Source of the DNA: Sporomusa malonica
GTDB lineage: Bacteria; Bacillota; Negativicutes; Sporomusales; Sporomusaceae
DNA: 64,000 nucleotides
Reading direction: 5' to 3'
Assembly: GCF_900176355.1 (NCBI RefSeq)
Contig: NZ_FWXI01000002.1
Location: 217,073 to 281,072 of the forward strand
A program made the translations under genes and the position numbers. The notes beneath the pieces were generated by a model. The model did not search any database, was not told the origin of the DNA, and saw nothing but the letters and a program-made list of their open reading frames with translations. Below, piece by piece: positions 32,273 through 58,539 of the stretch (positions are counted from its first letter, which is position 1; every line of letters begins with the position of its first letter).

Positions 32273-33118
32273 ATGGTGAAGTGGAAGGGGCTGCGTGACT
32301 ATTTAGGCATTGTGCTGGGTACGGTAATCACCGCACTGGCGCTTAATATGTTTTTGATCCCTAACAAAGTTGCGGCTGGCGGCATTAGCGGCTTGGCCAC
32401 AGTACTCCACCATACCTTTGGGTTGCCTGTAGGCATGACCATGTTGGCGTTTGATATACCGATGTTTTTAGTTAGTGTCAAAGTATTGGGCACACGCTTT
32501 GGCCTCAATACCTTACTTGGTGCCGGCATACTGGCGGCAAGTATTGACCTGACCGCCCCGTTTGTACCTGTTCTAACCCGTGATTTGCTGCTGAATTCAT
32601 TATATGGCGGTGTACTTGCCGGTGTTGGCATGGGGATTGTGTTCAAGTTTAAAGGAACAACCGCCGGTACTGATTTGGCAGCAGCCATTATTAATAAATT
32701 GACAGGCATTAGCATTGGGCAGGCGCTCCTAGGCGTCGACTTTTTCGTTATTGCCCTGGCAGGTATTGTCTTTGGCAGTGCTGAATTATCACTCTATGGA
32801 CTTATCTCTTTATTTGTCACTACGCAGATCATCGACCTGGTGCAGGAAGGCCCCAGCGCGGCGAAAGCCTTTTTTATCATGTCCAATTCATCTGATAAGG
32901 TGGCTGATGCCATCATGGCTGAACTTGGCCGAGGGGTTACTTTTTTAAATGGACGAGGCGCTTATACTCAGACCAACCGCGATGTGGTGTTCTGTGTGGT
33001 CAGTACCCGCGAAGTATCCCACCTGAAAGAATTGGTATATCGCATTGACCGTGAGGCCTTTGTTATTGTCGCCGATGCTCATGAAGTTTTAGGCGAAGGC
33101 TTCAATACACTCCGCTGA
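32273..33118 (+). CDS. YitT family membrane protein (DUF161 + DUF2179)
   Basis: A 281-aa protein. Five to six membrane helices in the first 200 residues (LGIVLGTVITALALNMFLIPN, IAAGGISGLATVLHHTFGLP, FKFKGTTAGTDLAAAIIN) are the YitT/DUF161 pattern. The C-terminal DUF2179 domain is GRGVTFLNGRGAYTQ and VVSTREVSHLKELV. Function is unknown; it is a putative transporter with a ligand-sensing tail. ATG 32273 follows GTGAGGAGGTAGCG. Its stop TGA shares bases 33117-33118 with the end of a palindromic element. Confidence 0.85.
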   Translation: MVKWKGLRDYLGIVLGTVITALALNMFLIPNKVAAGGISGLATVLHHTFGLPVGMTMLAFDIPMFLVSVKVLGTRFGLNTLLGAGILAASIDLTAPFVPVLTRDLLLNSLYGGVLAGVGMGIVFKFKGTTAGTDLAAAIINKLTGISIGQALLGVDFFVIALAGIVFGSAELSLYGLISLFVTTQIIDLVQEGPSAAKAFFIMSNSSDKVADAIMAELGRGVTFLNGRGAYTQTNRDVVFCVVSTREVSHLKELVYRIDREAFVIVADAHEVLGEGFNTLR

Positions 33119-33240
33119 AACTGGCTATAAACGCCCATCTGCGTTGTTGCTTCTGCGGGCGTTCTCTCCGACGTACTTCCCAGTACGACTACGGTCACGT
33201 CCTCGGCGCGCCTAGCACCTGGGCATTTCTAGCCAGTTTC
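33117..33240 (+). repeat. 124-bp palindromic element, copy 1
   Basis: 21-base terminal arms 33117-33137 and 33220-33240 are complementary at 19 of 21 positions (GAAACTGGCTA.AAA.GCCCA). The core carries CATCTGCGTTGTTGC and a small hairpin GTACT/AGTAC. The core is nearly identical to the copy at 58416. The left arm begins inside the YitT stop codon. Confidence 0.88.
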
Positions 33241-33307
33241 AGGCCTGTTCATTGATAATAAATTTAATGTAATATAGTTAAGAAGATCATGGGAGGTTAT
33301 GAAAGAT

Positions 33308-34153
33308 ATGGTAAATAAGTTATCTCCGGAACAGCTGAAAGAGCTTGCTGGCCGGGCTACATCCATCAGGCGCAATATTGTAAGCATGGTTACTGAAGCG
33401 AAATCAGGCCATCCAGGCGGTTCGCTGTCGTCTGCCGATATTTTGTCTGTGCTGTATTTTGCCGAGATGAATGTTGCACCTGCCAAGGCCAAAGACCCTG
33501 AACGCGACCGCTTTGTGTTGTCTAAAGGTCACGCTGCGCCGGTACTCTACGCTACGCTTGCCGAAAAAGGCTACTTGCCGGTGGAGGAGCTCTTAACACT
33601 GCGCAAGGTTAACAGTCGTCTGCAGGGACACCCTGAGATGAAAGGCATCCCTGGTGTCGATATGTCAACAGGTTCTTTGGGACAAGGTCTGAGTGCTGCC
33701 AATGGTATGGCGCTGGCAGGCAAGCTTGACGCTAGAGACTACAGGGTGTATGCCCTGTTAGGTGACGGCGAATTGGAAGAAGGACAGGTTTGGGAAGCGG
33801 CTATGTTTGCTGCTCATTACAAATTGGACAACCTCACAGCTTTTGTTGATTTTAATGGCCTGCAAATTGACGGCCCTGTGACCGAAGTCATGTCGCCGTT
33901 GCCGATCCCAGAAAAGTGGCAGGCCTTCGGCTGGAATGTACTTGTCATCGACGGTCACGACTATAACGCCATCTATGACGCCATCCAAGAAGCCAAAACT
34001 GTAAAAGGTAAACCAACCATGATTGTGGCTAAAACCGTAAAAGGCAAGGGTGTCTGCCAAATGGAAAACATCGTCGACTGGCACGGCAAAGCCCCCAGCC
34101 GCGAAGAATGCTCACTGTTCTTAGCTGAATTAAACGAGATGGAAAGTCAATAA
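33308..34153 (+). CDS. Transketolase, N-terminal (TPP-binding) subunit
   Basis: A 281-aa split transketolase subunit. SGHPGGSLSSADIL, SKGHAAPVLYATLAEKGY and the TPP/Mg motif GDGELEEGQVWEAAMFAAHYKLDNL are intact. It forms a two-subunit enzyme with the 34333 gene, moving two-carbon units between sugar phosphates in the pentose-phosphate pathway. ATG 33308 is preferred (11 bases from GGGAGG); ATG 33299 would leave a 2-base gap. Palindromic elements lie on both sides, at 33117 and 34188. Confidence 0.93.
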   Translation: MVNKLSPEQLKELAGRATSIRRNIVSMVTEAKSGHPGGSLSSADILSVLYFAEMNVAPAKAKDPERDRFVLSKGHAAPVLYATLAEKGYLPVEELLTLRKVNSRLQGHPEMKGIPGVDMSTGSLGQGLSAANGMALAGKLDARDYRVYALLGDGELEEGQVWEAAMFAAHYKLDNLTAFVDFNGLQIDGPVTEVMSPLPIPEKWQAFGWNVLVIDGHDYNAIYDAIQEAKTVKGKPTMIVAKTVKGKGVCQMENIVDWHGKAPSREECSLFLAELNEMESQ

Positions 34154-34187
34154 TTCTCTCTCGTTATTAAAAATTATGAATTTACAC

Positions 34188-34309
34188 GCGGGTGGCTATG
34201 AATGTCCAGATGCTAGGCGCGACGAGAACCGTAGCGGAGGCGTACACGTGGTACGCTGAGCAACGGATCGCAGGAGCAACAACGCAGATGGGCGTTCAGA
34301 GTCACTCGC
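34188..34309 (-). repeat. 122-bp palindromic element, copy 3 (inverted)
   Basis: Reverse-complemented, this stretch carries the same core (AACGCCCATCTGCGTTGTTG, then TCGCGCCTAGCATCTGGAC) as copies 1 and 2. Arms 34188-34208 and 34289-34309 pair, with several G-U pairs, using yet another outer sequence. The centre is GCGTAC/GTACGC rather than GTACT/AGTAC. It lies 34 bases after the transketolase N stop. Confidence 0.85.
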
Positions 34310-34332
34310 CTACGAAAGAGGTGCAAAGTAAA

Positions 34333-35277
34333 TTGGCTAATCAACTTGCCACCCGCGAAGCCTATGGCACAGCCCTTAAAGAATTAGGCGACCGTAATAA
34401 AAATGTCGTAGTCTTGGACGCCGACTTGTCCAAGTCCACTAAGACCAATGTATTCGCCAAAGCCCATCCTGACCGGTTCTTCAATGTCGGTATTGCCGAG
34501 CAGAACCTGATGGGTGTGGCTGCCGGCTTAGCTGCCGCAGGGAAGATTCCTTTTGTATCTACCTTTGCTATGTTTGCCACAGGCCGGGCATTTGAACAAA
34601 TCCGTAACTCTATTTGTTATCCTCAGCTCAATGTGAAGATTGCTGCCACTCATGCAGGTCTGACTGTTGGTGAGGACGGCGCTTCCCATCAGTCGATTGA
34701 GGATATCGCGATTATGCGGGCACTGCCTAATATGACGATCATTGTGCCAGCCGATCCGGCTGAGACCAAGCAAGCTATCGACTTTGCGGCCGAGTTTCAA
34801 GGTCCTGTCTATATCCGGCTGGGGCGCGCGGCTGTGCCGAATATATTTGGTGAATCCTATGAGTTTCGTCTGGGGAAAGCAGCACTTTTAACTGATGGAA
34901 CTGATGTGACCCTTATCGCCTGCGGCGTTATGGTAGCACCTGCCCGTCACGCAGCTGAGCAACTTATTTCCCAGGGAATTAGTGCCAGGGTACTTGATAT
35001 GGCTACCATTAAGCCGATTGATAAAGAGGCAATTATTGCCGCTGCACGTGATACCGGTGCTATTGTTACCTGCGAAGAACATAGCATTATCGGCGGTCTC
35101 GGCGGTGCAGTAGCCGAAGTGCTTGGTGAAAACTTCCCTGTACCGCTTGAGCGGGTCGGCGTCATGGACACGTTTGGCGAGTCAGGTACACCAAACGAGC
35201 TGCTGAAAAAATATAATCTGACTGAAGAGGCTATTGTCGCTGCCGCCAAGAAGGTTGTTAGCCGCAAAAAAGCATAG
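34333..35277 (+). CDS. Transketolase, C-terminal subunit
   Basis: A 314-aa pyrimidine-binding plus C-terminal subunit. ATREAYGTALKELGDRN, VLDADLSKSTKT, FNVGIAEQNLMGVAAGLA (catalytic Glu in AEQNL), SHQSIEDIAIMRALPNM and ITCEEHS-like VTCEEHSIIGGLG are present. TTG 34333, 9 bases after AAAGAGGTG, gives the family-usual length. The frame is open back to 34192, but those 47 codons are mostly the inverted palindromic element. GTG 34321 is another option. Partner of the 33308 gene. Confidence 0.9.
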   Translation: MANQLATREAYGTALKELGDRNKNVVVLDADLSKSTKTNVFAKAHPDRFFNVGIAEQNLMGVAAGLAAAGKIPFVSTFAMFATGRAFEQIRNSICYPQLNVKIAATHAGLTVGEDGASHQSIEDIAIMRALPNMTIIVPADPAETKQAIDFAAEFQGPVYIRLGRAAVPNIFGESYEFRLGKAALLTDGTDVTLIACGVMVAPARHAAEQLISQGISARVLDMATIKPIDKEAIIAAARDTGAIVTCEEHSIIGGLGGAVAEVLGENFPVPLERVGVMDTFGESGTPNELLKKYNLTEEAIVAAAKKVVSRKKA

Positions 35278-35292
35278 AACTGTTGAAGCATT

Positions 35293-35341
35293 AAAAAAGC
35301 CCGCACATGCATATCTATTATGTATGTGCGGGCTTTTATTC
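35293..35341 (+). terminator. Strong rho-independent terminator
   Basis: A 14-bp stem AAAAGCCCGCACAT / ATGTGCGGGCTTTT (35295-35308, 35324-35337) with A-run and T-run flanks. Ends the transketolase transcript. Confidence 0.92.
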
Positions 35342-35361
35342 GTTTTAAAAGGAGGGATTGT

Positions 35362-36102
35362 GTGAACTCCTGGCGAGTGATAAACCTTGGCCGGCGGGTG
35401 CTCAGGCGGGCCGGAATCGGGATTATTGGCTTGTTTGCATTGGTGCAGATGGGCGGGGCCTTCTCAACGGCCGTGTCGATGCTGGTATCGCTAGCGTTTT
35501 ATGCCTTAGCTTTCGGCAGCAGATTTGCGCTGGGGTTTATTTTTCTCTTACTGGTACATGAATTGGGGCATGTGGCAGCTTCACGCATTGTCGGACTCCG
35601 CGCCAGTGGGCCGACCTTCATCCCTTTCATCGGTGCAGTTATTAGTTTAAATCGTGCGCCGATCAACGCCAAGATGACGGCCAATATCGCCATTGGCGGT
35701 CCAGCGGCCGGAACACTCAGCGCTCTGGGGTGTTTGGCGTTATACCTGTGGAGTGACAGTACGCTCATGTTGGTGCTGGCGTACACCTCATGCCTGTTGA
35801 ATCTTTTTAATCTGATTCCCTGCGCACCGCTTGACGGTGAACGCATTGCCGCTGCCATCTCGCCGCGACTTTGGTGGATTGGCAGTTTTGTTATTGGCAT
35901 TGTATTTTTGTATACATATAACATATTAGTTTTCATTATTTTCCTATTTTCCTTGTTTGAGCTATGGCGGGGAGACGATCAACAGGCGAGCAGTTACTAT
36001 CGGTTGACAGCCACCCAGCGTCTTAATGTGGCCTGGTGGTATTTCGGTTTGTTAAGCGTGTTGGGGGTTACTACATTGTATACGATGGATTTATTAAAAT
36101 AG
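35362..36102 (+). CDS. M50 (site-2-protease-like) membrane metalloprotease
   Basis: A 246-aa membrane protein with about six helices. The zinc-binding HELGH is at residues 66-70 (LLVHELGHVAASRIVG); the third ligand is the Asp of NLIPCAPLDGERI, matching the NxxPxxPLDG pattern. GTG 35362 is 7 bases after AAAGGAGGG; the frame runs back into the terminator. Such proteases cleave transmembrane segments in signalling or act on envelope proteins. No anti-sigma partner is next to it. Confidence 0.85.
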   Translation: MNSWRVINLGRRVLRRAGIGIIGLFALVQMGGAFSTAVSMLVSLAFYALAFGSRFALGFIFLLLVHELGHVAASRIVGLRASGPTFIPFIGAVISLNRAPINAKMTANIAIGGPAAGTLSALGCLALYLWSDSTLMLVLAYTSCLLNLFNLIPCAPLDGERIAAAISPRLWWIGSFVIGIVFLYTYNILVFIIFLFSLFELWRGDDQQASSYYRLTATQRLNVAWWYFGLLSVLGVTTLYTMDLLK

Positions 36103-36147
36103 AGTCATTATCTGGAAAAAAATAGCAATATGTAAATTTAGCAATAG

Positions 36148-36168
36148 ACGAAAAAGGAGGTTTTTCGT
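36148..36168 (+). promoter_or_regulatory. Leader hairpin with a ribosome binding site in the loop
   Basis: ACGAAAAA (36148-36155) pairs perfectly with TTTTTCGT (36161-36168); the 5-base loop is GGAGG. It is followed by a five-codon frame GTG ACT CAT GTC GAA TAG. It lies about 60 bases ahead of the ftsE start. Confidence 0.4.
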
Positions 36169-36229
36169 GACTCATGTCGAATAGCAACAATACTTTAGTC
36201 TTTGACTTAGCAATGGAGGTACTTTAGTT

Positions 36230-36916
36230 TTGATTTACATGAGTGATGTGTCGAAAGTGTATAGCAACGGTTCGGTTGCTCTAGCAGACGTTACAGTGGA
36301 AATCGGCAAAGGGGATTTTATTTTTGTAGTGGGTCCGAGTGGCGCTGGCAAATCGACATTCATTAAACTGATTTTTAGAGAAGAATTGCCTACTAGCGGG
36401 CGTCTTGTCGTTAATGGGCGCAACGTTGTGGATATGATGCCAAAGGAAGTGCCATATTTACGGCGGGGACTGGGGATTGTATTCCAGGATTATCGCCTGC
36501 TGCCTAATAAAACGGTATATGACAATGTGGCTTTTGCCATGCAGGTGATTGAATCATCGCGTCGTGAGATGCAAAAAAGAGTTCATAATGTGCTTGACTT
36601 AGTCGGTCTCAGGCACAAAGTGCGCACATATCCTTCAGAACTGTCAGGTGGCGAACAGCAGCGGGTAGCCATTGCCAGGGCGATTGTTAATAATCCGGTT
36701 GTTGTGATTGCCGATGAACCAACAGGCAACCTGGATCCAGATACCTCGTGGGAAATCATGAAAGTGTTTGACACAATCAACAAGGCAGGCACCACTATTG
36801 TTATGGCTACACATGACAAAACAGTGGTTGATGCCATGAAAAAACGCGTTATTGCCATTGAAAAGGGCCGTATCGTCCGAGATCAGGTAAAAGGAGTATA
36901 CGGCTATGAAGATTAG
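36230..36916 (+). CDS. ftsE: Cell-division ABC-type ATPase FtsE
   Basis: A 228-aa FtsE. Walker A GPSGAGKST (35-43), Q-loop VFQDYRLLPNKTV, signature LSGGEQQR and Walker B VVIADEPTGNLDP are intact. It powers FtsX to activate a peptidoglycan hydrolase. TTG 36230 lies 9 bases after GGAGGT and matches the normal family length; the ATG at 36239 is too far from the ribosome binding site. Overlaps ftsX by 11 bases. Confidence 0.95.
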   Translation: MIYMSDVSKVYSNGSVALADVTVEIGKGDFIFVVGPSGAGKSTFIKLIFREELPTSGRLVVNGRNVVDMMPKEVPYLRRGLGIVFQDYRLLPNKTVYDNVAFAMQVIESSRREMQKRVHNVLDLVGLRHKVRTYPSELSGGEQQRVAIARAIVNNPVVVIADEPTGNLDPDTSWEIMKVFDTINKAGTTIVMATHDKTVVDAMKKRVIAIEKGRIVRDQVKGVYGYED

Positions 36917-37793
36917 GACAATTGAATATTTTGTGCGTGAGGCCGTTTCTTCGCTCAGACATAATGGGCTTATGAGCATTGCGTCAGTAAGCACGGTAGC
37001 GCTGTCACTCTTAATTTTGGGTATGTTCTTAGTTATGGTGCTCAATCTGAACCATATGGCCTCAACCCTGGAAACCCAAGTGCAGATTACCGTATATATG
37101 GAAGATGGCCTGTCTGACCGGGACATGCGGGAAATTGGAACAAGAATAACCAAGTTGAATGGTGTTACGCAGGTTATGTTTATTGATAAAGAGCAGGCAA
37201 TGGTTAAGTTTAAAGAACGGCTGGGCGAACAACAAGGCTTACTTACTGCCTTGGGTGATACTAATCCGCTGCCGAACTCTTTTGAAGTTAAGGTAGACAA
37301 GCCCGAATATGTTAAACCTGCGGCTCAGGCTATTGGTCAGCTCAAGGGCGTGGAAACTGCCAAATACGGTCAGGAGGTCATTGAACAGCTGTTTAGCCTG
37401 ACCAAGATGATCCGGATCTTTGGGCTTATCCTAATAGTCTTCCTGGCACTGGCCGCTTTGTTCATTATTGCCAATACCATCAGAATTACCGTATTTGCCC
37501 GTCGTAAGGAAATCGGGATTATGAAGTATGTTGGTGCAACTGACTGGTTTATCAGATTGCCCTTCATGATTGAAGGAATGATATTAGGCTTTGGCGGAGC
37601 CCTCATCGCTGTGCTTATCTTGGGCCAGACCTACAGCACGATTACCGAAAAAGTCTATGAATCACTGGCGTTTTTACCGCTGATTCCTAAAAATCCATTT
37701 TTAACCCATATTAGCATCGTGCTGCTGGTGGTGGGCACGGCAATCGGCGCGTTGGGCAGTACTATTTCACTTCGCCGCTTCATGAGGGTGTAA
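36906..37793 (+). CDS. ftsX: Cell-division membrane protein FtsX
   Basis: A 295-aa FtsX. The N-terminal cytoplasmic part YFVREAVSSLRHNGLMSIAS precedes helix 1. A periplasmic loop of about 120 residues (LETQVQITVYMEDGLSDRDMR) follows. Three C-terminal helices contain RKEIGIMKYVGATDWFIRLPF, the coupling helix to FtsE. The extracytoplasmic loop should contact the EnvC-like activator encoded next. Confidence 0.95.
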   Translation: MKIRTIEYFVREAVSSLRHNGLMSIASVSTVALSLLILGMFLVMVLNLNHMASTLETQVQITVYMEDGLSDRDMREIGTRITKLNGVTQVMFIDKEQAMVKFKERLGEQQGLLTALGDTNPLPNSFEVKVDKPEYVKPAAQAIGQLKGVETAKYGQEVIEQLFSLTKMIRIFGLILIVFLALAALFIIANTIRITVFARRKEIGIMKYVGATDWFIRLPFMIEGMILGFGGALIAVLILGQTYSTITEKVYESLAFLPLIPKNPFLTHISIVLLVVGTAIGALGSTISLRRFMRV

Positions 37794-37808
37794 CAGGAGG
37801 GAGAACCG

Positions 37809-38945
37809 TTGGTAATTAAACGAATTTTATCTTTAGGCTTGGCTGTCTCGCTTACCGTCACTGTACTCAGTACAGCGCTGGCTGACGAAATCGACCAGAA
37901 ACAGCGCCAACTGCAAAGTATTCAACAACAGATGGAAGCCCAGCAAAATAGGGCAGCGCAGGCCCAACAACAGGTTAACAGTGTATCAGACCAACTGCGG
38001 ACGATTCAAGGCGATCTTGATACTGCAGCTGGCGAATATAACGCTATTTTATCAAAGCTGGCAGCTACCGAGCAGCAGATCGAGGCTAACACGGAATTGT
38101 TGGCCAAAGTGGAAAAAAATCTGGCAGAGCGCAGCCAGATTCTCAACAAGCGGATGCGCGACATCTATAAAAACGGTCAGGTGAACTATGTAGATGTGCT
38201 GTTTGGTGCTGCTGACTTTGCGGATTTTACCACAAGGGCCGACTTGCTAAAACGGGTTGTTAACCAGGATCTGACGCTTGTTGCTCAGGTAAAGGCAGAG
38301 CGTGAGCTTGTTGTCCAAAAACGGGCAGAACTTGAGCGTGACAAGGTTGCCATTGTTGACCTTAAGCAGCAGGCAACTGCAAAAAAGGCTGTAATTGAGG
38401 CCCGGAAAAATGAGCGGGAAAAAGTATTGGATTCAGCAGTAAGTGAACGTGATACGGCTGAGCGTGCCTATCAGGAACTGATGGATACCTCGCGGCAGAT
38501 TGAACAAATGATCAGGAATATCCAGTCTGGCGGAACAGCATCAGGGCCTGCAGGTGGCAGCGGTGCACTCATGTGGCCGGCCTCTGGCCCGATTACCTCG
38601 CCGTTTGGTTGGCGGACACACCCTATATTTGGTACCCAGCGGTTCCACAGTGGTATTGACATTGGTGCTGATTATGGTGATTCAATTATGGCAGCTGACA
38701 GTGGAACTGTTATCTTCAGCGGCTGGATGGGGGGCTATGGTAAGGCGGTTATCGTCGATCATGGTGGCGGTATCTCAACCCTGTACGCTCATAATTCAGA
38801 GCTGCTAGTGGAAGAAGGCTACCGGGTGCAAAAAGGGCAGACCATCTCCCGTTGCGGCTCGACTGGCTACTCGACCGGCCCGCACCTGCATTTTGAAGTG
38901 CGTGAGAACGGTTCACCAGTCAGCCCGATGGGGTATCTGCCGTAG
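37809..38945 (+). CDS. EnvC-like murein hydrolase activator / M23 peptidase
   Basis: A 378-aa secreted protein. Signal peptide 1-26 (ending TALA). Long coiled coil with Gln/Ala-rich heptads (about 27-245; QRQLQSIQQQMEAQQNRAA). The C-terminal LytM/M23 domain has RFHSGIDIGADYG (zinc His and Asp, about 279-283), TLYAHNS and HLHFEVREN (about 358). All zinc ligands appear present, so unlike E. coli EnvC it may be an active endopeptidase. TTG 37809 follows AGGAGGGAG. Expected to be driven by FtsEX at division or sporulation. Confidence 0.9.
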   Translation: MVIKRILSLGLAVSLTVTVLSTALADEIDQKQRQLQSIQQQMEAQQNRAAQAQQQVNSVSDQLRTIQGDLDTAAGEYNAILSKLAATEQQIEANTELLAKVEKNLAERSQILNKRMRDIYKNGQVNYVDVLFGAADFADFTTRADLLKRVVNQDLTLVAQVKAERELVVQKRAELERDKVAIVDLKQQATAKKAVIEARKNEREKVLDSAVSERDTAERAYQELMDTSRQIEQMIRNIQSGGTASGPAGGSGALMWPASGPITSPFGWRTHPIFGTQRFHSGIDIGADYGDSIMAADSGTVIFSGWMGGYGKAVIVDHGGGISTLYAHNSELLVEEGYRVQKGQTISRCGSTGYSTGPHLHFEVRENGSPVSPMGYLP

Positions 38946-39046
38946 AGCCTAGAATATTTACAAGCAATTTGACATATAGTTAAAAGGATAAAATGAAAAA
39001 GGGATAAGTCCGGTTTCGAACCCGCGACTTCTGCGAGGTGTATTGA

Positions 39047-40183
39047 TTGAGCCGCCGTAAAATAATTTTTGGCGCAGTGCTATTAGTTTTAGTGACATTT
39101 TTGACTACATCGGCCGGATTCCTCTATCTGATGAATGCCTGGTCGTCTGATGTTGTCAGCACGCTGAGAGTGCTGCGGGCACTGCAGGTGGTCAAGTCCC
39201 GCTATGTCGAAGAGGTTCCGGTTGAAACGCTGATGGCTGGATCAATTAAAGGCATGGTTAACTCTCTGAATGATCCCCATTCAGTATATATGGATGCCAA
39301 GATGTTTAAAGAGTTTATGATTGAAACCGAGGGTTCCTTTGGTGGTGTTGGTATTGTTATTGGCACCAAAGATAAACTACTCACAGTTGTTGCTCCCATT
39401 GAAGGAACTCCCGGCGAAAAGGCTGGTATCAAAAGTGGTGACCAGATTATCAAGATAGACGGTCAGGACACCAAGGACCTTGCGCTTGATGAAGCTGTCA
39501 ACAAAATCCGCGGCCCGGAAGGCAGCAAAGTTGTGCTGACTGTTAAGCGGGGCCAGGAGATGAAAGATTATACTCTTACCCGCTCTAACATTCAGATTAA
39601 GACAGTGGCCGGTAAAATGTTGGATAATCATATCGGCTATATTCGAATCTCTATGTTTAACGAAAACACGGGTAATGACTTTGTTCGTAAATTACAGGAA
39701 CTTGAAAAACAAGGTATGAAAGCCATGGTGCTTGACCTTAGGGATAACCCCGGTGGACTCTTGGATGAAAGTGTTAAAGTTGCCAGTCAGTTTGTACCCA
39801 AAGGACCAGTCGTCTCGGTAGTTACCCGGGATGGGCGGCGCGAAACGCACTCTTCCAACCTGGAAACGCCGAAATATCCGGTAGCCATTTTGGTTAACGG
39901 CGGCAGCGCCAGCGCCTCTGAGATTGTAGCCGGGGCGGCGCAAGATACTGGCGTGGGTACGCTGATTGGTACCAAGACGTATGGTAAAGGCTCAGTTCAA
40001 ACAGTCGTCCGTCTTGACGAGGGTTCAGGCATTAAGCTAACAATAGCTAAGTATTTGACTCCTAAAGACAGGTCGATCAATGGGGTAGGCATTGAACCTG
40101 ATATTAAGGTTGAATTGCCTGAAACCAAAGATAAAGATGTACAGCTTGATAAAGCACTTGAGGTTTTAAAAACTAAACTGTAG
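39047..40183 (+). CDS. S41 C-terminal processing protease (CtpA/CtpB type)
   Basis: A 378-aa protein with an N-terminal signal anchor (IIFGAVLLVLVTFLTTSAGFL). A PDZ domain lies around 95-180 (GIVIGTKDKLLTVVAPIEG). The peptidase core has the nucleophile Ser in NGGSASASEIVAGA and the general-base Lys in GTKTYGKGSVQ, giving an intact Ser-Lys dyad. In Bacillus CtpB cleaves the sporulation factor SpoIVFA; other members process envelope proteins. TTG 39047 follows GCGAGGTG. A tRNA-like scrap precedes the gene at 39002. Confidence 0.92.
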   Translation: MSRRKIIFGAVLLVLVTFLTTSAGFLYLMNAWSSDVVSTLRVLRALQVVKSRYVEEVPVETLMAGSIKGMVNSLNDPHSVYMDAKMFKEFMIETEGSFGGVGIVIGTKDKLLTVVAPIEGTPGEKAGIKSGDQIIKIDGQDTKDLALDEAVNKIRGPEGSKVVLTVKRGQEMKDYTLTRSNIQIKTVAGKMLDNHIGYIRISMFNENTGNDFVRKLQELEKQGMKAMVLDLRDNPGGLLDESVKVASQFVPKGPVVSVVTRDGRRETHSSNLETPKYPVAILVNGGSASASEIVAGAAQDTGVGTLIGTKTYGKGSVQTVVRLDEGSGIKLTIAKYLTPKDRSINGVGIEPDIKVELPETKDKDVQLDKALEVLKTKL

Positions 40184-40260
40184 GTTAGTATTGTATAACA
40201 GTCTTAGGTTGGTTTATAACTATATAAACCAACCTAATCTTCATTTGAGGTGAGGACAAC

Positions 40261-51175: not shown

Positions 51176-51190
51176 GTGATAAAAAAAATC

Positions 51191-51220
51191 TTGCCGGAAT
51201 TTTGTCCTGTGGGATATAAT
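51191..51220 (+). promoter_or_regulatory. Candidate promoter of the holin-family gene
   Basis: TTGCCG (51191-51196), 18-base spacer, consensus TATAAT (51215-51220). Confidence 0.5.
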
Positions 51221-51277
51221 AAATACTATCGGCTGTAGGCTAGAAAACTGTCTAGGGCGGCAGGAGGAGTAAACTCA

Positions 51278-51622
51278 GTGAGTGGTTTTTTGCTTAGGAT
51301 TATAATCAATGCAGTTATTTTGATTGTGGTGGTAACTGAACTTCCAGGGGTTTTTGTGGATACCTTGGGAGGGACATTACTCGGGGCGGCCATTGTCGGC
51401 TTGGCTAATGCGGCCATCAGGCCGATGTTAGCTATTGCTGCTCTACCGTTTGATATGCTGACACTGGGCAGTATTACTGTCATGACCAATATCTTTACAC
51501 CGCTCATGGTCGTCAAGGCACTGCCCGGTTTTCAAATCTCTGGTGCGGTAACCTTGTTAACAGGCATCTTGCTGATGACGTTATGCAGTTTCACTTTATC
51601 GAAAGTGATACATGACAGGTAA
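51278..51622 (+). CDS. Phage holin family IV-like membrane protein
   Basis: A 114-aa protein with four predicted membrane helices: IIINAVILIVVVTELPGVF, LLGAAIVGLANAAIRPMLAI, LGSITVMTNIFTPLMVV and AVTLLTGILLMTLCSFTL. The ANAAIRP segment is typical of this widely conserved chromosomal family (Phage_holin_4_2-like). No other phage gene is nearby, so it is probably a housekeeping membrane protein of unknown role. GTG 51278 follows GCAGGAGGAG. Confidence 0.82.
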   Translation: MSGFLLRIIINAVILIVVVTELPGVFVDTLGGTLLGAAIVGLANAAIRPMLAIAALPFDMLTLGSITVMTNIFTPLMVVKALPGFQISGAVTLLTGILLMTLCSFTLSKVIHDR

Positions 51623-51630
51623 ATAATTGT

Positions 51631-51662
51631 GGGAATTTTGCAAACAGCAAAATTCCCTTTTT
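51631..51662 (+). terminator. Rho-independent terminator
   Basis: A perfect 11-bp stem GGGAATTTTGC / GCAAAATTCCC with loop AAACA, then TTTTT. Confidence 0.9.
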
Positions 51663-51687
51663 AATTATAGGAAAAGGAGATAATCAT

Positions 51688-52485
51688 ATGACGATAAAAC
51701 TGGTAGCCTTGGATTTGGACGATACCTTATTAGATAGCAAGCTGGCCGTTTCACCACGGGCCTGTGAGGCCATCCGCAAGGCAGTGGCGCAGGGGGTAAC
51801 TGTGACCATCGCCACAGGGCGGATGTATTGCTCGGCCCTCCCTTATGCCAGACAACTGGGGCTTGATGTACCGCTTATTACCTATAACGGAGCGCTGATT
51901 AAATCCAGTATATCTGGAGAGACACTACTGCATCAGCCGGTTGACAAGGAACTTGCCAGGCAGGCGCTTGAATTATGCCGGGAACATGGCTGGTATATCC
52001 AGACATATGTGAACGACGAACTCTATGTGAAAGAAATCGATCAATATGCTGACTACTATTCGAGACTGTCGGGTGCTCCTGCTATAGCCCTTGGTGACGC
52101 CTTTTTTACTGGTGGAGAACGGCCGACAAAGATGCTGACTATGTCGACGCAGGAAGGCATCATTGAAATATATAACACTTTTAAAGCTGTATTTGGCAAT
52201 AAACTCAATTTAGCGATATCTAAACCGACTTTTATGGAAATTACTGACCCGGCGGCAAATAAGGGCCGGGCATTGGCATTTTTAGCTGACAAACTGAGAA
52301 TAAAGCAAGAAGAAATCATGGCTCTGGGAGATAGTGGCAATGATTTGGATATGGTCAAATATGCAGGCTGGGGTGTTGCTATGGGTAACGCCAGTGCTGC
52401 GGTTAAGGCCGCTGCCCGGCTGGAAACATTGTCAAATGATGCGGATGGCGTAGCTGAAGCCATTGAAAAATATGTACTAGGATAA
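51688..52485 (+). CDS. Cof-type HAD-IIB hydrolase
   Basis: A 265-aa HAD phosphatase. Motif I is ALDLDDTLLDS (Asp9, Asp11), motif II is in TIATGRMY, the Cof-type cap lies at about 85-185, and motif III/IV is LALGDSGNDLDMVKYAG with Lys in PAANKGRALAFL. Members hydrolyse sugar phosphates, FMN or PLP. ATG 51688 follows AAAAGGAGATAATCAT. Monocistronic between terminators. Confidence 0.92.
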   Translation: MTIKLVALDLDDTLLDSKLAVSPRACEAIRKAVAQGVTVTIATGRMYCSALPYARQLGLDVPLITYNGALIKSSISGETLLHQPVDKELARQALELCREHGWYIQTYVNDELYVKEIDQYADYYSRLSGAPAIALGDAFFTGGERPTKMLTMSTQEGIIEIYNTFKAVFGNKLNLAISKPTFMEITDPAANKGRALAFLADKLRIKQEEIMALGDSGNDLDMVKYAGWGVAMGNASAAVKAAARLETLSNDADGVAEAIEKYVLG

Positions 52486-52586
52486 TCCGAAGTTTCTAAA
52501 ATTAAATTTGCATAATTCGATACTATACAGCAGGAAATTGCTCGCGCCGCTGAGAATTCAATACCAAAAGGGTATGGAGGCTCATT

Positions 52587-53012
52587 ATGCGGGATAAAAC
52601 CATGAGTATATTGTTGGTTGAAGATGATGAAGTAGATATCATGAATGTTAAACGAGCCTTTAAAAGAATTAACCTAAGTAATCCTTTATACATAGCCCGT
52701 GATGGTGTTGAGGCGTTAGCTATGCTGCGCGGGCAGAGCGGCCAGTCAAGCAGGCCGTGGCCTGGGTTAATCCTCCTTGATATTAATATGCCGCGCATGA
52801 ATGGGATTGAATTCTTGCATGAGATCAGACAGGATCCGGAGTGTAAGATGATTACCGTTGTTGTTCTGACAACATCAAATGAAGAACGCGATGTTGTTGC
52901 TGCTTACCAGCTTAATGTGGCTGGCTATATTATTAAACCGGTATCATTCGAACAATTTGTCGAAACCATGGCTGCGCTTGATCACTATTGGACATTGAGC
53001 GAAATGCCATAA
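52587..53012 (+). CDS. Stand-alone response regulator (Rcp1-like receiver domain)
   Basis: A 141-aa single receiver domain. Acid pocket VEDDEVD (Glu12-Asp14), phospho-acceptor Asp65 in LILLDINMP, Thr in VVLTTSNEERD, Lys in YIIKPVSFEQF. The Rcp1 type works in phosphorelays with hybrid or phytochrome-like kinases. ATG 52587 follows TATGGAGGCTCATT. Its gene lies 15 bases before the REC-GGDEF-EAL gene, suggesting a shared signalling chain. No kinase is encoded here. Confidence 0.9.
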   Translation: MRDKTMSILLVEDDEVDIMNVKRAFKRINLSNPLYIARDGVEALAMLRGQSGQSSRPWPGLILLDINMPRMNGIEFLHEIRQDPECKMITVVVLTTSNEERDVVAAYQLNVAGYIIKPVSFEQFVETMAALDHYWTLSEMP

Positions 53013-53027
53013 GGGGAGATGTTGGGG

Positions 53028-54716
53028 ATGGCTGAAGACCTCCGGATACTCTTAATAGATGACGATGAAGTTGACCGGATTATGGTCAGGCGAGCGCTTA
53101 AAGCTGCACATGCTGAGATTTTTGTTGACGAAACAGACAATGGCTGTGAGGGACTCTGCAAGGCACTGTCAAGTGATTATGCCTGCATTTTTCTTGATCA
53201 CTGCTTGCCGGGCGACAGTGGATTAGCCGTGCTGTCGGCTATCCGTACGGCAGGGGTTAAAACGCCTGTTATTATTCTAACAGGCCAGGGAGACGAACAA
53301 CTGGCTGTTGACTCAATGAAAGCTGGTGCCACCGATTATCTGGTAAAAGGTAAATTAACGCCAGAAATCCTATCTCAGGGTTTGCGGGCAGCCATCCGGT
53401 TAGGTCGTGCCGAAGCAATGATTGAGTATTTGTCCTATTATGATGCGGCAACTGGTTTACCTAACAGGCTGCTATTGATTGACCGTCTTGTTATGGCACT
53501 GTCGGCAGCCGAGCAGGGCAGCCGTATGTTGGCGCTGCTATTTGTTGGCGTTGACCGCTTTAAAATGGTAAATGACACATTAGGCCATAGCTTGGGAGAT
53601 AAGCTTATCCGTGTTGTTGCTGAAAGGCTAACTAAGTGTGTAGGCGAACAAACTGTGGTTACGCGGGTTGGCGGCGATGTTTTTGGCATTCTGCTGCCTG
53701 GTTTAGCTGGTTCCAAAACAGCTGCCAGTATTGCCGAAAGCATGATTGAGGAAATTCGTCAGCCTGTTGATTTAGATGGCTATAGCTGGCACCCTGCAGC
53801 CAGTGTAGGTATTGCTGTCTATCCCGATGATGGACAGGATGCCGATATGCTGCTGAAAAATGCCGAGTCTGCCATGTACCGGTCAAAGGAACAGGGGGGC
53901 GCCAGTTATCAGTTTTACACAAAAAGCATGAACGCGAACGTGCTTGAACGCATGATGCTGGAAAGCAGCCTGCGGCAGGCGCTTAGCCATAATGAGCTGG
54001 TAGTGTATTATCAGCCGCTCATTGATGGTACTGTTGGCTGCACAGCCGGGATCGAGGCGCTTGTACGCTGGCAGCACCCTAAGCGCGGTCTGGTGCCGCC
54101 ACTAGATTTCATTCCTCTGGCCGAGGAAACCGGTCTGATTGTGCCGATTGGGGAGTGGGTGCTGAGGACGGCATGCGCCCAGAATAAAGCGTGGCAGGAT
54201 GCCGGCTATCCGCCTGTAGTGGTGTCTGTGAATCTGTCCGGCCGTCAATTTCGCCAGCCGAATTTTACTGGTATGGTTAGTCAAGTGCTCATAGATACTG
54301 GATTGGCTCCTGAGTATTTAGAACTGGAAATAACCGAGACCATTGCTCTGGAGGATGTTGATTACACCATTGCTATTCTCAAAGAGCTGGGGGCAATGGG
54401 GATCAAGATCGCTATCGATGATTTTGGTACAGGGTATTCGTCGCTGAGTTATTTGAAACGTTTTCCTATTACCACACTCAAAATAGACAGGATCTTTGTT
54501 AAGGATGCTACCCAAGATGCCCAGGATGCAGCAATTGTATCAGCCATTATCATTTTAGCGCATAACCTTAATCTGAAAGTTATTGCAGAAGGTGTAGAAA
54601 CAGCTGAACAACGGCTGTTTTTACGGGAAAGGCACTGTAATATGATGCAGGGTTTTTTATTCAGTCGTCCGTTGCCAGCGGCCCAGGTAGAAAATATGCT
54701 TGATCGCCGTTGGTGA
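53028..54716 (+). CDS. Receiver-GGDEF-EAL cyclic-di-GMP phosphodiesterase
   Basis: A 562-aa signalling protein. Receiver domain 1-125 (acid pocket IDDDEVD, acceptor Asp57 in IFLDHCLPG, Lys in DYLVKGK). GGDEF-like domain about 135-300, whose active-site loop reads GGDVF (about 215-219), so cyclase activity is doubtful. EAL domain about 315-560 with EALVRW, ELEITETI, DDFGTGYSSL and the Lys in TLKIDRIFV intact, indicating c-di-GMP hydrolysis. ATG 53028 lies 9 bases after GGGGAG; ATG 53019 is in frame but too close. Confidence 0.92.
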   Translation: MAEDLRILLIDDDEVDRIMVRRALKAAHAEIFVDETDNGCEGLCKALSSDYACIFLDHCLPGDSGLAVLSAIRTAGVKTPVIILTGQGDEQLAVDSMKAGATDYLVKGKLTPEILSQGLRAAIRLGRAEAMIEYLSYYDAATGLPNRLLLIDRLVMALSAAEQGSRMLALLFVGVDRFKMVNDTLGHSLGDKLIRVVAERLTKCVGEQTVVTRVGGDVFGILLPGLAGSKTAASIAESMIEEIRQPVDLDGYSWHPAASVGIAVYPDDGQDADMLLKNAESAMYRSKEQGGASYQFYTKSMNANVLERMMLESSLRQALSHNELVVYYQPLIDGTVGCTAGIEALVRWQHPKRGLVPPLDFIPLAEETGLIVPIGEWVLRTACAQNKAWQDAGYPPVVVSVNLSGRQFRQPNFTGMVSQVLIDTGLAPEYLELEITETIALEDVDYTIAILKELGAMGIKIAIDDFGTGYSSLSYLKRFPITTLKIDRIFVKDATQDAQDAAIVSAIIILAHNLNLKVIAEGVETAEQRLFLRERHCNMMQGFLFSRPLPAAQVENMLDRRW

Positions 54717-54832
54717 ACTTATATGGCGGTCTGCTTTATCCGATAATAGTACAAATAGATTAAAATAATGACATTAATTTCTAAAGTGTATCTTGTCAAG
54801 TGACAGACAACCTGGTAATATAAATAATAAAC

Positions 54833-54913
54833 ACATATACGTATAGCAAAGACGCTTTTTGTATAGCAGCAGCAATGCTCGCTTAAAAGCGTCTTTTTTA
54901 TATACGTATATGT
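54833..54913. repeat. Terminator nested in a 13-bp perfect inverted repeat
   Basis: ACATATACGTATA (54833-54845) and its exact complement TATACGTATATGT (54901-54913) flank the terminator hairpin. Each arm is itself nearly palindromic (ATATACGTATAT). It may be two operator half-sites or an extended hairpin. Confidence 0.6.
54848..54899 (+). terminator. Rho-independent terminator
   Basis: AAAGACGCTTTT (54848-54859) pairs with AAAAGCGTCTTT (54885-54896), followed by TTT. Lies between the EAL gene and the chemoreceptor. Confidence 0.75.
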
Positions 54914-54935
54914 CAGGCTGGGGGGGAGATGTCAC

Positions 54936-56672
54936 ATGATGCTTAGAAAATTGCGAATAGGTACTAAAATCAGCCTAGGGTTTGCTATCATGCTTGGCTT
55001 GATTATTATGTTGGGGGGCATAGCTTACGTGTCCCTGAACTCACTCAGTAAAACCCTGGCCTCAATTGATGCTGCCAATAAGCGGTTACAGCTGGCTATG
55101 CAAATCGAGGGAAGCTTTGTTACCGGAGTTGCTGCTACCCGTGGTTTCATTGCTTACGGGGACGAGAAATTTGCCAAGCAGCAGGAGCAGTCCATGAGTA
55201 ATACTGTAGTGCTGGAACACCAGCTTATCGATGTTGTGGACGAAAACTCCCGTCCAGATGTGCAGAAGCTTATTCAGTTGACAAGTAAACATGCTGATGG
55301 TATTGTCAACGATTTAGCACCAGTGGTTCGTGCCTATCATAAGCAGCTGGCTGCGGGAAATGCCGTAGAGGCGCAACTGTTGAAGACCGAAGCTTATGCC
55401 ATTGCCGGCCGGATTATGCCTTATTCTGAGCAGATTGCCGGTATCTTGACAAAAGTGGTCCAAGATAATAAAGACATTGTTGATGAGCATGTAAACGGCT
55501 CTTATATAGGTATGGACAGAAGTTTGGGCATCACTGCCCTGGTTGCTCTGTTTGCCATCATTGCTGGTGCTGGGTTAAGCGTACTGCTCACCCGTATGGT
55601 TTGCCGGCCAATTGAAAATATGCTGACAGTTGCGAATAGTTTAGCCGAAGGTGATTTGAGCATTCCCGTCAAACGGGTAGATGATGGTGATGAATTAAGT
55701 AAGCTGGCGGCGGCGCTTAACACAATGCAGCATCGTTTTAAAACAGCCATTCGGGAAATCCTGGGCTCTGCCAGCCAGGTGGCTGCGGCATCAGATACCT
55801 TGGCTGCTGTTGTGGAAAATTCGGCTCGTGCCGCCAGTCAAGTGGATGAGTCAGTTGCACATGTCGCCTCAGACGCAGAGATTCAATTATCGGCGGCTAA
55901 TGATGCGCTGGCTGTTGCCGGACAAATGGCAGCCGGGATTCAGCAGATAGCCGCCAACGCCGGTGCGGTGGTGGCCGCATCGCAGAATACAGCTTCTGCT
56001 GCTGAGTCTGGTAGTCAGGCAGTTGGCAAGGCTGTTACCCAAATGGAAAATATTGAAGCAACTGTAAACAGTTTGGCCGACGTAATAACCAATTTAAGCG
56101 GGCACTCTAATCAGATTGGTGAAATCGTCAACGCTATTTCCGGGATTGCCAGCCAAACCAATCTATTAGCGCTGAATGCCGCTATTGAAGCAGCCCGGGC
56201 TGGGGAGCAGGGACGGGGTTTTGCCGTTGTTGCTGAGGAAGTGCGCAGACTTGCCGAACAAGCCAGCCAGTCTGCAAAGCAGATTGCTGGGCTGATCGGC
56301 GAGATACAGGCAGAGACTAGTTTGGCAGTTAAGGCTATGGAATCGGGAACACGGGAAGTAAAGCTGGGAGCCGAGGTGGTAAGCACGGCCGGCGGCGTTT
56401 TTGCTGAAATTAGCACCCATATTGATAAGATGTCGGCAGAGGTACGTGAAATATCAGCTGCTATATCGGAGATGGCAGGCGGCAGCCAGCGGATTGTGAC
56501 TGCGGTAGAGTCGTTCTCAGCCAGTAGTAAAGATATTGCCGGCCAGACGCAGACTGTAGCCTCAGCCAGCCAGGAACAGGCAGCCTCCATGCAGGAAATC
56601 GCGGCATCTGGCCAAGGTCTCCAGCAGATGTCACAAGAACTGCATACCTCTGTAAGTAAGTTTAAGCTATAG
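54936..56672 (+). CDS. Methyl-accepting chemotaxis protein
   Basis: A 578-aa chemoreceptor. Helix 1 ([21 protein letters not shown]), an extracytoplasmic helical sensor (about 35-190), helix 2 ([22 protein letters not shown]), a HAMP domain (about 215-265), then a long signalling coiled coil with the tip [20 protein letters not shown]. Ala/Gln/Glu-rich methylation helices flank the tip. No response regulator or CheW fusion. ATG 54936 lies 9 bases after GGGGGGAG. The ligand is unknown; 4-helix-bundle sensors often bind small metabolites. Confidence 0.94.
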
Positions 56673-56744
56673 GTGCCGTTTAACTTTGGTTCTACATATA
56701 ATGTATTAGTACAAAATTATGTTAAACCAAAGGGCGGTGACTCT

Positions 56745-57359
56745 ATGCTACGGAGAATCACAGACTTTTTTCTTCATGAATGGAAGTTTTTCATAATGCT
56801 GTCAGTATTGGTGGTTGCTCTAGGCGTTGCCTATTATGAATATCGTCAATACATAAAAATAACGCATATCCAACCTATCGCAGCAGTCCCCAATATTACG
56901 GTAAATACTAACGGTCAACCCTCCAAATCTGGTGAGACACAGGTGGTCTATGTCAAAGGCGAGAATACACACACTAAAGAAATTGTGTATATTCCCAAAG
57001 AAACAATTGAGACAAAGCAGCCTGACGGGACGATAAAAAAAGAACAAGAAAAGACAGATGTGGAAATAGAACGGAAGCAGGGACTTATCTTCGTCAAAGT
57101 AAATGGCAAAGAATTTGCTGTCCCAGCTGAAGTAAAGGAAGAAAGCAAGTTTGAAAACGGCAAGCTGATGGTTACCGAACAAAGCGAAATGCGCATTAAT
57201 ATTACTGCCCCAAAACCGGCGCTTAACCTGGGCGTGGGCTGGAGTAAAGACGGTCCGGCTGTCCAGATGAACGGCCCATTTTTCAAAAATGTGTCATGGT
57301 GGGTATACGGCGACAAAAAAAAGGCAGCCGGCGGCATCCAGTTCCCGATCTCTAAATGA
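56745..57359 (+). CDS. Membrane-anchored protein of unknown function
   Basis: A 204-aa protein. One N-terminal membrane helix (FFIMLSVLVVALGVAYYEY, about 14-32) places the rest outside the cytoplasm. The middle (about 60-125) is highly charged, Lys/Glu/Thr-rich (ETKQPDGTIKKEQEKTDVEI). The C-terminal 55 residues are Gly/aromatic-rich with alternating pattern (LNLGVGWSKDG, NVSWWVYGDKK), as in beta structures. ATG 56745 follows AAAGGGCGGTGACTCT; the upstream frame from 56673 has no ribosome binding site. Not recognised. Its last codons form one arm of the terminator. Confidence 0.72.
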   Translation: MLRRITDFFLHEWKFFIMLSVLVVALGVAYYEYRQYIKITHIQPIAAVPNITVNTNGQPSKSGETQVVYVKGENTHTKEIVYIPKETIETKQPDGTIKKEQEKTDVEIERKQGLIFVKVNGKEFAVPAEVKEESKFENGKLMVTEQSEMRINITAPKPALNLGVGWSKDGPAVQMNGPFFKNVSWWVYGDKKKAAGGIQFPISK

Positions 57360-57382
57360 CGGGAACTGTTTTTGCTTTTTTT
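57339..57382 (+). terminator. Terminator overlapping the end of a coding region
   Basis: A perfect 9-bp stem CAGTTCCCG / CGGGAACTG (57339-57347, 57360-57368) with a 12-base loop, then TTTTTGCTTTTTTT. The 5' arm lies within the last codons of the preceding gene. Confidence 0.88.
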
Positions 57383-57400
57383 CCCATACTACCCTATAAT
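57372..57400 (+). promoter_or_regulatory. Promoter of the rapZ operon
   Basis: TTGCTT (57372-57377), 17-base spacer, consensus TATAAT (57395-57400). The -35 lies inside the U-tract of the preceding terminator. About 125 bases of leader follow, including a REP-like unit. Confidence 0.65.
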
Positions 57401-57441
57401 TAAGTTATAATAAGCAATATATATATATAGTCTGTGCGATT

Positions 57442-57471
57442 GTCATTGCGAGCAGCGCGAAGCAATCTCGC
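57442..57471 (-). repeat. REP-like dispersed repeat, copy C
   Basis: The reverse complement reads GCGAGATTGCTTCGCG...CTCGCAATGAC, matching copy B at 24282 in all but a few middle bases. It lies in the leader of rapZ. Confidence 0.78.
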
Positions 57472-57528
57472 TTTTGACTGTAACAGGCTATTAGTAAGAT
57501 AAGGCTAGGAAAAGTTGAGGTGTTCACA

Positions 57529-58410
57529 ATGACGATAGATAACTTTCGCCTGGTAATTATTACCGGTATGTCAGGCGCCGGTAAGTCACAGGTTATACGG
57601 GCCATGGAGGACTTGGGATACTTTTGTGTTGATAACCTGCCGCCGATGTTAATCCCTAAATTTGCTGAGTTATGCGCCCAGTCTGGGGGTAAGGTTTCCA
57701 AAATTGCGCTTGTTGTTGATATTCGCGGTGGTGAGTTCTTTGACACACTGCTGCAGGTGCTTGAAGGTATGGAAAAGCAGGGGCTCTTATATGAAATACT
57801 GTTTCTGGAAGCCTCTGATTCCACCATTATCCGCCGTTACAAGGAGACCCGCCGCCGCCATCCCATGGCACCGCATGGTCGTATCAGCGAAGGCATTAGC
57901 CGGGAGCGTGACCGTTTGGAGCAAATCAGGGGACGGGCTAACCATATTATCGACACATCCGGCTTGGCAACCGCCGAGCTTAAAGGCAAGATAACGGCAC
58001 TATTTGCTGAAGAGCGTGAACATGAGCGAATGACGGTGACAGTTGTGTCCTTTGGTTTTAAATATGGCATGCCGCTCGATGCTGATATGGTGATGGATGT
58101 CCGCTTTCTCCCTAACCCTTTTTATGTTGAATCACTGCGGCGTAAAAGCGGCCAAGAGGCTTTGGTCGGTGAGTACATCTGGAAGTGGCCGGTAACCCAG
58201 CAGTTTATGGAAAAGCTGTCAGGGCTGGTTGATTTCCTTGTTCCGCACTATGTTAAAGAAGGTAAAAGCCAGCTGATCATTGCAATTGGCTGTACTGGTG
58301 GTCTTCACCGCTCAGTATTTGTCGCCGAGAAGATCTTTGAGTATCTCAAAGGCAAGGGCTTCAAGGTCAACGTTGAACATCGGGATATAAAACATAACGT
58401 AATCGAATAA
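57529..58410 (+). CDS. rapZ: RNase adapter / nucleotide-binding protein RapZ (YvcJ)
   Basis: A 293-aa RapZ/YvcJ. Walker A is GMSGAGKS (about 13-20), ETRRRHPM and the Walker B-like VDIRGGEFF are family features. The C-terminal domain has SFGFKYGMPLDADMVMDVRFLPNP and IAIGCTGGLHRSVFVAE. In E. coli it senses GlcN6P and steers RNase E; in Bacillus it affects competence. ATG 57529 lies 6 bases after GAGGTG. First gene of rapZ-yvcK-whiA, although a 124-bp palindrome separates it from yvcK. Confidence 0.95.
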   Translation: MTIDNFRLVIITGMSGAGKSQVIRAMEDLGYFCVDNLPPMLIPKFAELCAQSGGKVSKIALVVDIRGGEFFDTLLQVLEGMEKQGLLYEILFLEASDSTIIRRYKETRRRHPMAPHGRISEGISRERDRLEQIRGRANHIIDTSGLATAELKGKITALFAEEREHERMTVTVVSFGFKYGMPLDADMVMDVRFLPNPFYVESLRRKSGQEALVGEYIWKWPVTQQFMEKLSGLVDFLVPHYVKEGKSQLIIAIGCTGGLHRSVFVAEKIFEYLKGKGFKVNVEHRDIKHNVIE

Positions 58411-58415
58411 TGAGG

Positions 58416-58539
58416 GCGGCAGGTTCTAAACGCCCATCTGCGTTGTTGCTCTTGCGGGCGTTCCCTCCGACGTACTTCCCAGTACGACTCCGGTCACGTC
58501 CTCATCGCGCCTAGCATCTGGACATTTATAACCAGCCGC
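58416..58539 (+). repeat. 124-bp palindromic element, copy 2
   Basis: Arms 58416-58436 and 58519-58539 pair at 17 of 21 positions. The core (CATCTGCGTTGTTGC, ACGTACTTCCCAGTACGACT, GTCACGTCCTC, CGCGCCTAGCA) nearly equals copy 1, while the outer arm (GCGGC.GGTT) differs from copy 1 (GAAACTGGCT). It begins 5 bases after the rapZ stop. Confidence 0.88.

Follow-up and report, generated by a model that had tools for sequence, protein, structure and literature searches.

A large, mobile and apparently unnamed family of hairpin repeats, seemingly shared by two bacterial phyla

The window, a stretch of 64,000 nucleotides from Sporomusa malonica (Negativicutes; contig NZ_FWXI01000002.1, positions 217,073 to 281,072), carries several palindromic elements of about 124 bp that lie between genes and share a core. 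Their outer arms are unlike between copies and matched within each copy. How can a repeat lose the sequence of its arms and retain their pairing? Is a fold under selection and, if so, on which strand? Or are the arms simply copied onto one another by mutation? And how does such an element reach new sites? Mobility and strand-specific folding are both supported by the comparisons described here. The reading that we prefer, with a probability of about 0.62, is that the elements form a family of small (~120-155 bp), non-autonomous mobile hairpin repeats in which one strand is structurally constrained and its shape is recognised for movement.

The hairpin, its copies and its folding strand

An earlier description made from the letters of the window (here, the sequence-only reading) had listed three copies. 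A covariance model (R1) built from 16 copies of the same genome returns exactly its three intervals, together with a diverged fourth that it had overlooked. Strand A denotes the orientation that it quoted (CATCTGCGTTGTTGC...CGCGCCTAGCA) and strand B the reverse complement.

33117..33240, (-) strand, the folding strand B: copy 1 (cmsearch 137.8 bits; arms at about 33117-33138 and 33219-33240)
34188..34309, (+) strand, the folding strand: copy 2 (cmsearch 110.6 bits), between the genes for the transketolase N and C subunits
58416..58539, (-) strand, the folding strand: copy 3 (cmsearch 137.7 bits), between a rapZ-type and a CofD-domain gene
28883..28984, (-) strand: copy 4, the diverged member (cmsearch 30.9 bits, E 4.9e-5)
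34276..34290, (+) strand: conserved core of copy 2 on its folding strand, GCAACAACGCAGATG, containing a GA/GA internal loop and a covarying AAC-AAC loop

The core CATCTGCGTTGTTGC is present without mismatch in copies 1-3, as had been claimed, and these are its only exact matches in the window. With up to three mismatches allowed the window holds 5 matches, with 2.1 expected by chance, so this short core alone is weak evidence. The arms, too, had been described correctly as differing between copies and matching within each.

How large is the family? With copy 3 as query, BLASTN gave 19 matches (E <=0.001) in the 5.19 Mb genome, and R1 gave 24 (E up to 0.01), bearing out the proposal of a dispersed family. 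The model matches 31 of 41 genomes including the window's own (30 of 40 relatives), several of them with at least 86 copies, and 23 of 299 genomes of the phylum, own included. Copy numbers per genome are lower bounds (86, 11 and 150 candidates were scored per genome in the 41-genome, the 299-genome and the metagenome-assembled sets), and two entries (G343, G344), whose coordinates are those of G002 and G003, do not enter the count of new genomes. A search for the exact 19-base core in a collection covering 84,980 species turned up 17 stretches; 13 of the 17 loci (14 matches) fit R1, and six of those lie in five deltaproteobacterial metagenome-assembled genomes (MAGs). Copy numbers in these five and in the MAG with another core hit (L073) are at least 40, 28, 31, 22, 9 and 83. 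By title, four of the six are Geobacteraceae, Desulfuromonas or Desulfuromonadales and two are only Deltaproteobacteria. Two genomes with chance hits to the core (Marinospirillum, Microbacteriaceae) have 0 model copies.

No Rfam family matched any element of the window, nor 19 further loci, at gathering score, and permissive scans of two copies and five loci gave chance-level matches only. Distant BLASTN of copy 3 found it in 0 of 72,556 plasmid and 0 of 50,697 phage records (records very near the own genome were possibly excluded). The literature searched on palindromic repeats of Negativicutes, Sporomusa and Geobacter, on the core sequence and on bcr1 holds no account of it, supplements being outside that search. 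Apparently, then, the repeats are a large, mobile hairpin family of two bacterial phyla that has no name so far; it would add to the catalogue a widespread family absent from Rfam, including copies inside ribosomal RNA (rRNA) operons.

The architecture is that of one long hairpin with conserved internal loops. Strand B reads AATGTCC-AGATGC-TAGGCG...GCAACAACGCAGATG-GGCGTT, placing CCA-GA-UGC opposite GCA-GA-UGG and then UAG-GC-GC opposite GC-AAC-AAC, and close to the tip stands an almost invariant GUAC stem. Among the 16 own copies, aligned without fitting to the model, 92.5% of cells are paired and 24 of 40 pairs show two-sided change, a figure reached by 0 of 500 shuffles; slid partners yield 7-13. 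Alignments fitted to the model gave two-sided change at 33 of 40 pairs for 91 distinct copies and at 28 of 40, above every shuffle, for 23 distinct deltaproteobacterial copies. Alignment A2 leaves out L014, L017 and L018. The central mini-hairpin had been said to change on both sides together: in the 16 copies it does not, with five of its seven pairs invariant and 0 changed on both sides, but in the larger set three of seven are two-sided. Between species, 13 of the 32 variable outer-arm pairs at eight orthologous sites changed on both sides (36 of 38 aligned matches used; two long forms left out). At the site of copy 1, for example, one species has CGGGCGA/TCGCCCG in place of the arm pair CTGGCTA/TAGCCAG, and two others have GGCAA/TTGCC. 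More copies exist and the covariation is real and strong, the two points on which the sequence-only reading had staked its proposal.

Which strand folds? The strand quoted earlier turns out to be the reverse of the folding one. Strand B of copy 1 folds at -53.4 kcal/mol (strand A, -52.8), the folding strand of copy 2 at -62.2 (complement, -38.0) and that of copy 3 at -56.1 vs -43.1 for its other strand. Against shuffles the better-folding strands have z of -5.2, -7.2 and -5.4, respectively, with 0 of 200 shuffles folding as well; the region of copy 4 (28875-28995) folds at -44.0 kcal/mol and its complement at -27.2. In the own genome strand B is the better folder in all 17 copies folded, by 0.4 to 22.6 kcal/mol (the partial BLASTN hits L017 and L018 being outside this set), and the same is true of 22 of 23 deltaproteobacterial copies. 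On strand B, G.U cells far exceed A.C cells: 49:10 in the unfitted alignment (18 pairs vs 4), 234:31 in the fitted one (26 vs 2) and 36:9 in the fitted deltaproteobacterial set (11 vs 5). G.U is kept at columns 17:115 (12 of 16 copies) and 19:113 (9 of 16). From a cruciform or a strand-blind mutational process one would expect parity.

The loops follow a rule that does not involve Watson-Crick pairing, in which the base after TGC is linked to the triplet before GCAG. T goes with AAC or GAC (RAC) in 74 of 79 elements and G with GAA in 23 of 25; these counts are not independent, as many copies are orthologues, and 9 of 127 elements were not parsed. The deltaproteobacterial T cases (10 of 10) and A cases (6 of 7) obey as well, 4 of those 23 elements being unparsed. 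Strand asymmetry and loop rule together fit a folded RNA; a folded single-stranded DNA is also possible. Paired change had previously been taken as a sign of selection. The covariation stands, but it is insufficient alone, since template switching can also homogenise arms; the claim of selection therefore rests on the strand asymmetry and the covarying loop, and by these one particular strand, B, appears to be selected to fold.

Filled sites, empty sites and neighbouring genes

Does the repeat move? The site of copy 1, beside the transketolase N gene, is filled in 8 of 9 Sporomusa genomes and that of copy 2 also in 8 of 9, two of these being altered long forms; both copies stand beside the gene in 7 of 9. 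At the copy 2 site the entire arms differ between clades. Several species have, at the copy 3 site, an inverted core within similar arms; one species has arms only, one has a decayed element, and a long form also occurs. Seven sites (A-G) were read, an eighth mapped one (L024) being left out. By eye, most genomes have an element at B (8 of 9) and C (6 of 8), and one or two have one at A (2 of 9), E (2 of 8), D (1 of 8) or F (1 of 9). At G the full element is seen in 1 of 9, and three more genomes have a hairpin that lacks the core. D, F and G carry a full element in the own genome only, A and E in two genomes. At two more sites, examined in five genomes each, relatives are empty, truncated or core-deleted, apparently between CAGATG repeats. 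The simplest reading of this pattern is insertion, together with some losses, and it supports one of the several earlier suggestions, that of non-autonomous mobile elements.

What is the mobile unit? In genome G009 the same starting arm and conserved flanks recur in 35 of 40 fetched copies, these 40 being among the best-scoring, and the unit measures ~155 bp. The arms therefore belong to the mobile unit; that they were pre-existing target hairpins is ruled out by the same copies. By eye, the B 5' side looks less sharply defined than the B 3' end. A second type of element has an extra small hairpin on the B 5' side; this GCGTGTTT..AAACACGC-type hairpin marks a subfamily (L014, which equals L033, L116, L123, L128 and L146) common to two genera.

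Several composite forms were seen along the way. In the long forms (L092, L090, L104, L106, L248, L096) a second hairpin of ~62 bases occupies the same internal-loop position at several unrelated sites, and two of the six have another insert opposite, across the same loop, giving hairpins nested in hairpins. At site B of G008 (L218) a half element is followed by a full one in a single intergenic site. At site F of G004 (L251) a core-less hairpin stands right after the stop codon, where the own genome has a full element.

The genes around copies 1-3 are the following.

32273..33118, (+) strand: YitT/DUF2179 membrane protein gene, upstream of copy 1 (open reading frame, Pfam)
33299..34153, (+) strand: transketolase N-terminal subunit gene, with copies 1 and 2 on its flanks (open reading frame, Pfam)
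34333..35277, (+) strand: transketolase C-terminal subunit gene (open reading frame, Pfam; start codon inferred by eye from orthologues)
57520..58410, (+) strand: RapZ-type gene, upstream of copy 3 (open reading frame, Pfam)
58576..59931, (+) strand: CofD-domain gene, downstream of copy 3 (open reading frame, Pfam), which we take to be yvcK-type

Copy 1 thus lies between the YitT-family gene and the transketolase N gene. The neighbours of all three copies are co-directional, as had been noted. Every copy was also said to start within 35 bases after a stop codon; this holds for copy 2, at 35 (34153), and copy 3, at 6 (58410), but copy 1 overlaps its upstream gene by 2 bases (33118). The folding strand of copy 2 is the sense strand of both transketolase subunit genes, and its end directly precedes the likely ribosome-binding site of the second. 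Elsewhere in the window, a raiA RNA (RF03072, 195.5 bits) occupies 17187-17420 on the plus strand.

Across the family, 48 of 100 elements have the 3' end of a gene no more than 40 bases from their B 3' end, and 13 of 100 have one that close to their B 5' end. Genes here are open reading frames of at least 80 amino acids, and 18 of the 24 own elements entered the count, those outside it being L034, L040 and four in rRNA/tRNA operons. The bias has p 0.0002 in G009. Relatives that are empty at A, E, F or G have, by eye, a stop codon corresponding to the one next to the element. In rRNA or transfer RNA (tRNA) operons, all 11 loci with called RNA genes carry the element in sense orientation, at about six kinds of site (L077 included). 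Some stand before 23S, before 5S, before tRNA-Met or before tRNA-Phe; in others the element runs, within a few bases, into the 3' half of tRNA-Asn or of 5S rRNA, and an intact copy of that gene lies upstream. This order of intact gene, element and 3' half of the same gene was observed at L265, L274, L023 and L025, and at L027. Ordinary transcription terminators were considered and ruled out, as neither strand of the copies read has a consistent T-run after the arms (L009 is T-rich there).

How the repeat may move

Small bacterial repeats are usually recognised through conserved sequence. What would recognise a repeat whose arms drift? We infer that a mobilising enzyme would recognise folded strand B, as RNA or single-stranded DNA; shape and loop motifs would then be kept and arm sequence left to drift. 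New copies would come to rest where the 3' end of strand B meets a stop codon or a stable-RNA gene, and would be transcribed there as passengers. Their long imperfect duplexes would probably be trimmed by RNase III, a predicted processing that, if it occurs, would make insertion in rRNA and tRNA operons tolerable. Template switching probably contributes to the matching of the arms. One more specific version, an improbable one, is that strand B RNA is itself the mobile form and is read back into DNA by a putative reverse transcriptase, a minimal bacterial retro-element. Such a route would explain why the fold is strand-specific and why the B 3' end is fixed but the B 5' side ragged, and equally the sense insertion in highly transcribed operons and the 3'-end joins to the 3' halves of tRNA-Asn and 5S rRNA.

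Several observations weigh against the reading of a mobile repeat moved through its folded strand. Strand A also folds strongly. Of the 32 variable outer-arm pairs, 9 include an unpaired state, and sites C, c3 and A show 0 two-sided changes. A-type loops have GCC in only 6 of 12, and both deltaproteobacterial G cases break the loop rule. Among changes since insertion, the strand bias towards G.U is non-significant (12:7 and 18:8; p 0.36 and 0.08). The placement bias is significant alone in G009 only (elsewhere, in three sets, p is 0.08 to 0.39). Protein operons mostly have strand B in antisense orientation, hence often not as the transcribed strand, and one 5S-type locus (L271) has 0 called RNA genes. 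No target-site duplication is clear at the sites read; possible CTCC or A-run repeats at two of them, seen by eye, are inconsistent across sites. No mobilising enzyme was found in a search limited to Y1, and Y1/RAYT transposases do not track the element. The claim of two phyla rests on MAG titles, all deltaproteobacterial carriers being, by title, MAGs.

Could mutation alone have matched the arms? Replication template switching can homogenise hairpin arms, according to the accounts consulted (PMC8794818; PMC8604942). By copying arm onto arm and sometimes inverting the spacer, it would make any palindromic insertion look covarying. The inverted core within similar arms at the copy 3 site counts for it, because inversion is a known product of the process; the differences of whole arms from clade to clade at the copy 2 site and the non-significant strand bias at fixed sites speak in the same direction. 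Yet template switching acts alike on both strands and repairs to Watson-Crick pairs, whereas strand B keeps G.U and A.C is rare, and it leaves both the loop rule and the conserved mismatched loops unexplained, so that as a full explanation it seems unlikely, if worth keeping in mind. Alternatively, the element may serve its host as a 3'-untranslated-region stabiliser, an attenuator or an RNase III processing signal kept for the benefit of the flanking operon. Retention of copies 1 and 2 beside the transketolase gene, positions directly after stop codons and the sense orientation in rRNA/tRNA operons would suit such a role. We consider it quite unlikely, as sister species lack the element at several sites and, in protein operons, its better-folding strand is mostly the antisense one.

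If the repeat is mobile, is it a passenger of a familiar transposase? An ordinary miniature inverted-repeat transposable element (MITE), cut and pasted by a DDE transposase that recognises its terminal inverted repeats, would likewise be small, palindromic, mobile and present in high copy, and G009 with its recurrent starting arm resembles one. Arms that vary across copies and genomes around a conserved inside are the reverse of a MITE, however, and the ends are unclear on the B 5' side; the explanation is a distinctly unlikely one. The hallmark of REP/REPIN elements is a Y1 transposase that tracks the repeat and is usually flanked by it. A strand-specific hairpin close to stop codons recalls them, and each of four Sporomusa genomes searched has 3-13 Y1 matches. 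But G025 has at least 86 elements and 0 Y1 matches, and an element lies near only 1 of 30 fetched Y1 loci (of 88 matches). On these figures dependence on RAYT was rejected, and a REP/REPIN-like element moved by a RAYT (Y1) transposase is very improbable. We thus return to a hairpin family, apparently of two phyla, that keeps its shape and the pairing of one strand while its arms drift, and that is well suited to studying the movement of such repeats and the purpose of their folding.

Relation to known repeats

How does the hairpin repeat compare with repeats already described? ERIC/IRU elements are, in the reviews consulted, ~127 bp long, mobile, intergenic and present in many copies, and can sit at gene 3' ends and be co-transcribed (PMC2229807, PMC10969869). 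Compared through these reviews rather than by sequence, the two are alike in size, mobility, intergenic location, copy number and position at gene 3' ends. ERIC is described with 7-bp terminal inverted repeats and TA ends, whereas the arms of the hairpin repeat vary and TA stands at both ends in some copies only. The reported range of ERIC is enterobacteria and vibrio; carriers of the hairpin repeat are Negativicutes, other Bacillota and deltaproteobacterial MAGs (enterobacterial genomes were outside the search). Unlike ERIC as described there, the hairpin repeat has one structurally constrained strand.

YPAL/RU-2 of Yersinia, by its description, resembles the hairpin repeat in being ~168 bp long and not A+T-rich, in having no TA ends and in showing filled and empty sites (PMC2229807). 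On the same descriptive comparison, the target duplications of YPAL, 3-26 bp long and placed at dyad symmetry or close to it, have no clear counterpart in the hairpin repeat. NEMIS/Correia elements are also palindromic and mobile, and their transcripts are reported to be cut by RNase III (PMC2229807, PMC10969869), a step only predicted for the hairpin repeat; unlike it, they belong to Neisseria and are described with 24-bp terminal repeats and TA ends. The hairpin repeat shares with MITEs its small size, mobility and inverted repeat.

Closer to the deltaproteobacterial carriers stand the multicopy intergenic sequences of Geobacter, including class 4 of G. metallireducens and the Chunjie MITE of G. 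uraniireducens, which are described as high-copy and partly palindromic in a related bacterial group (PMC2996986, PMC3543383). Chunjie, at 178-235 bp and with conserved terminal repeats, is unlike the hairpin repeat. Going by descriptions, the Geobacter multicopy palindromic families may include it. The best reading overall is that the hairpin repeat works like ERIC, YPAL and NEMIS and is a member of none of the families tested, differing from them in host range or in terminal features where these were compared.

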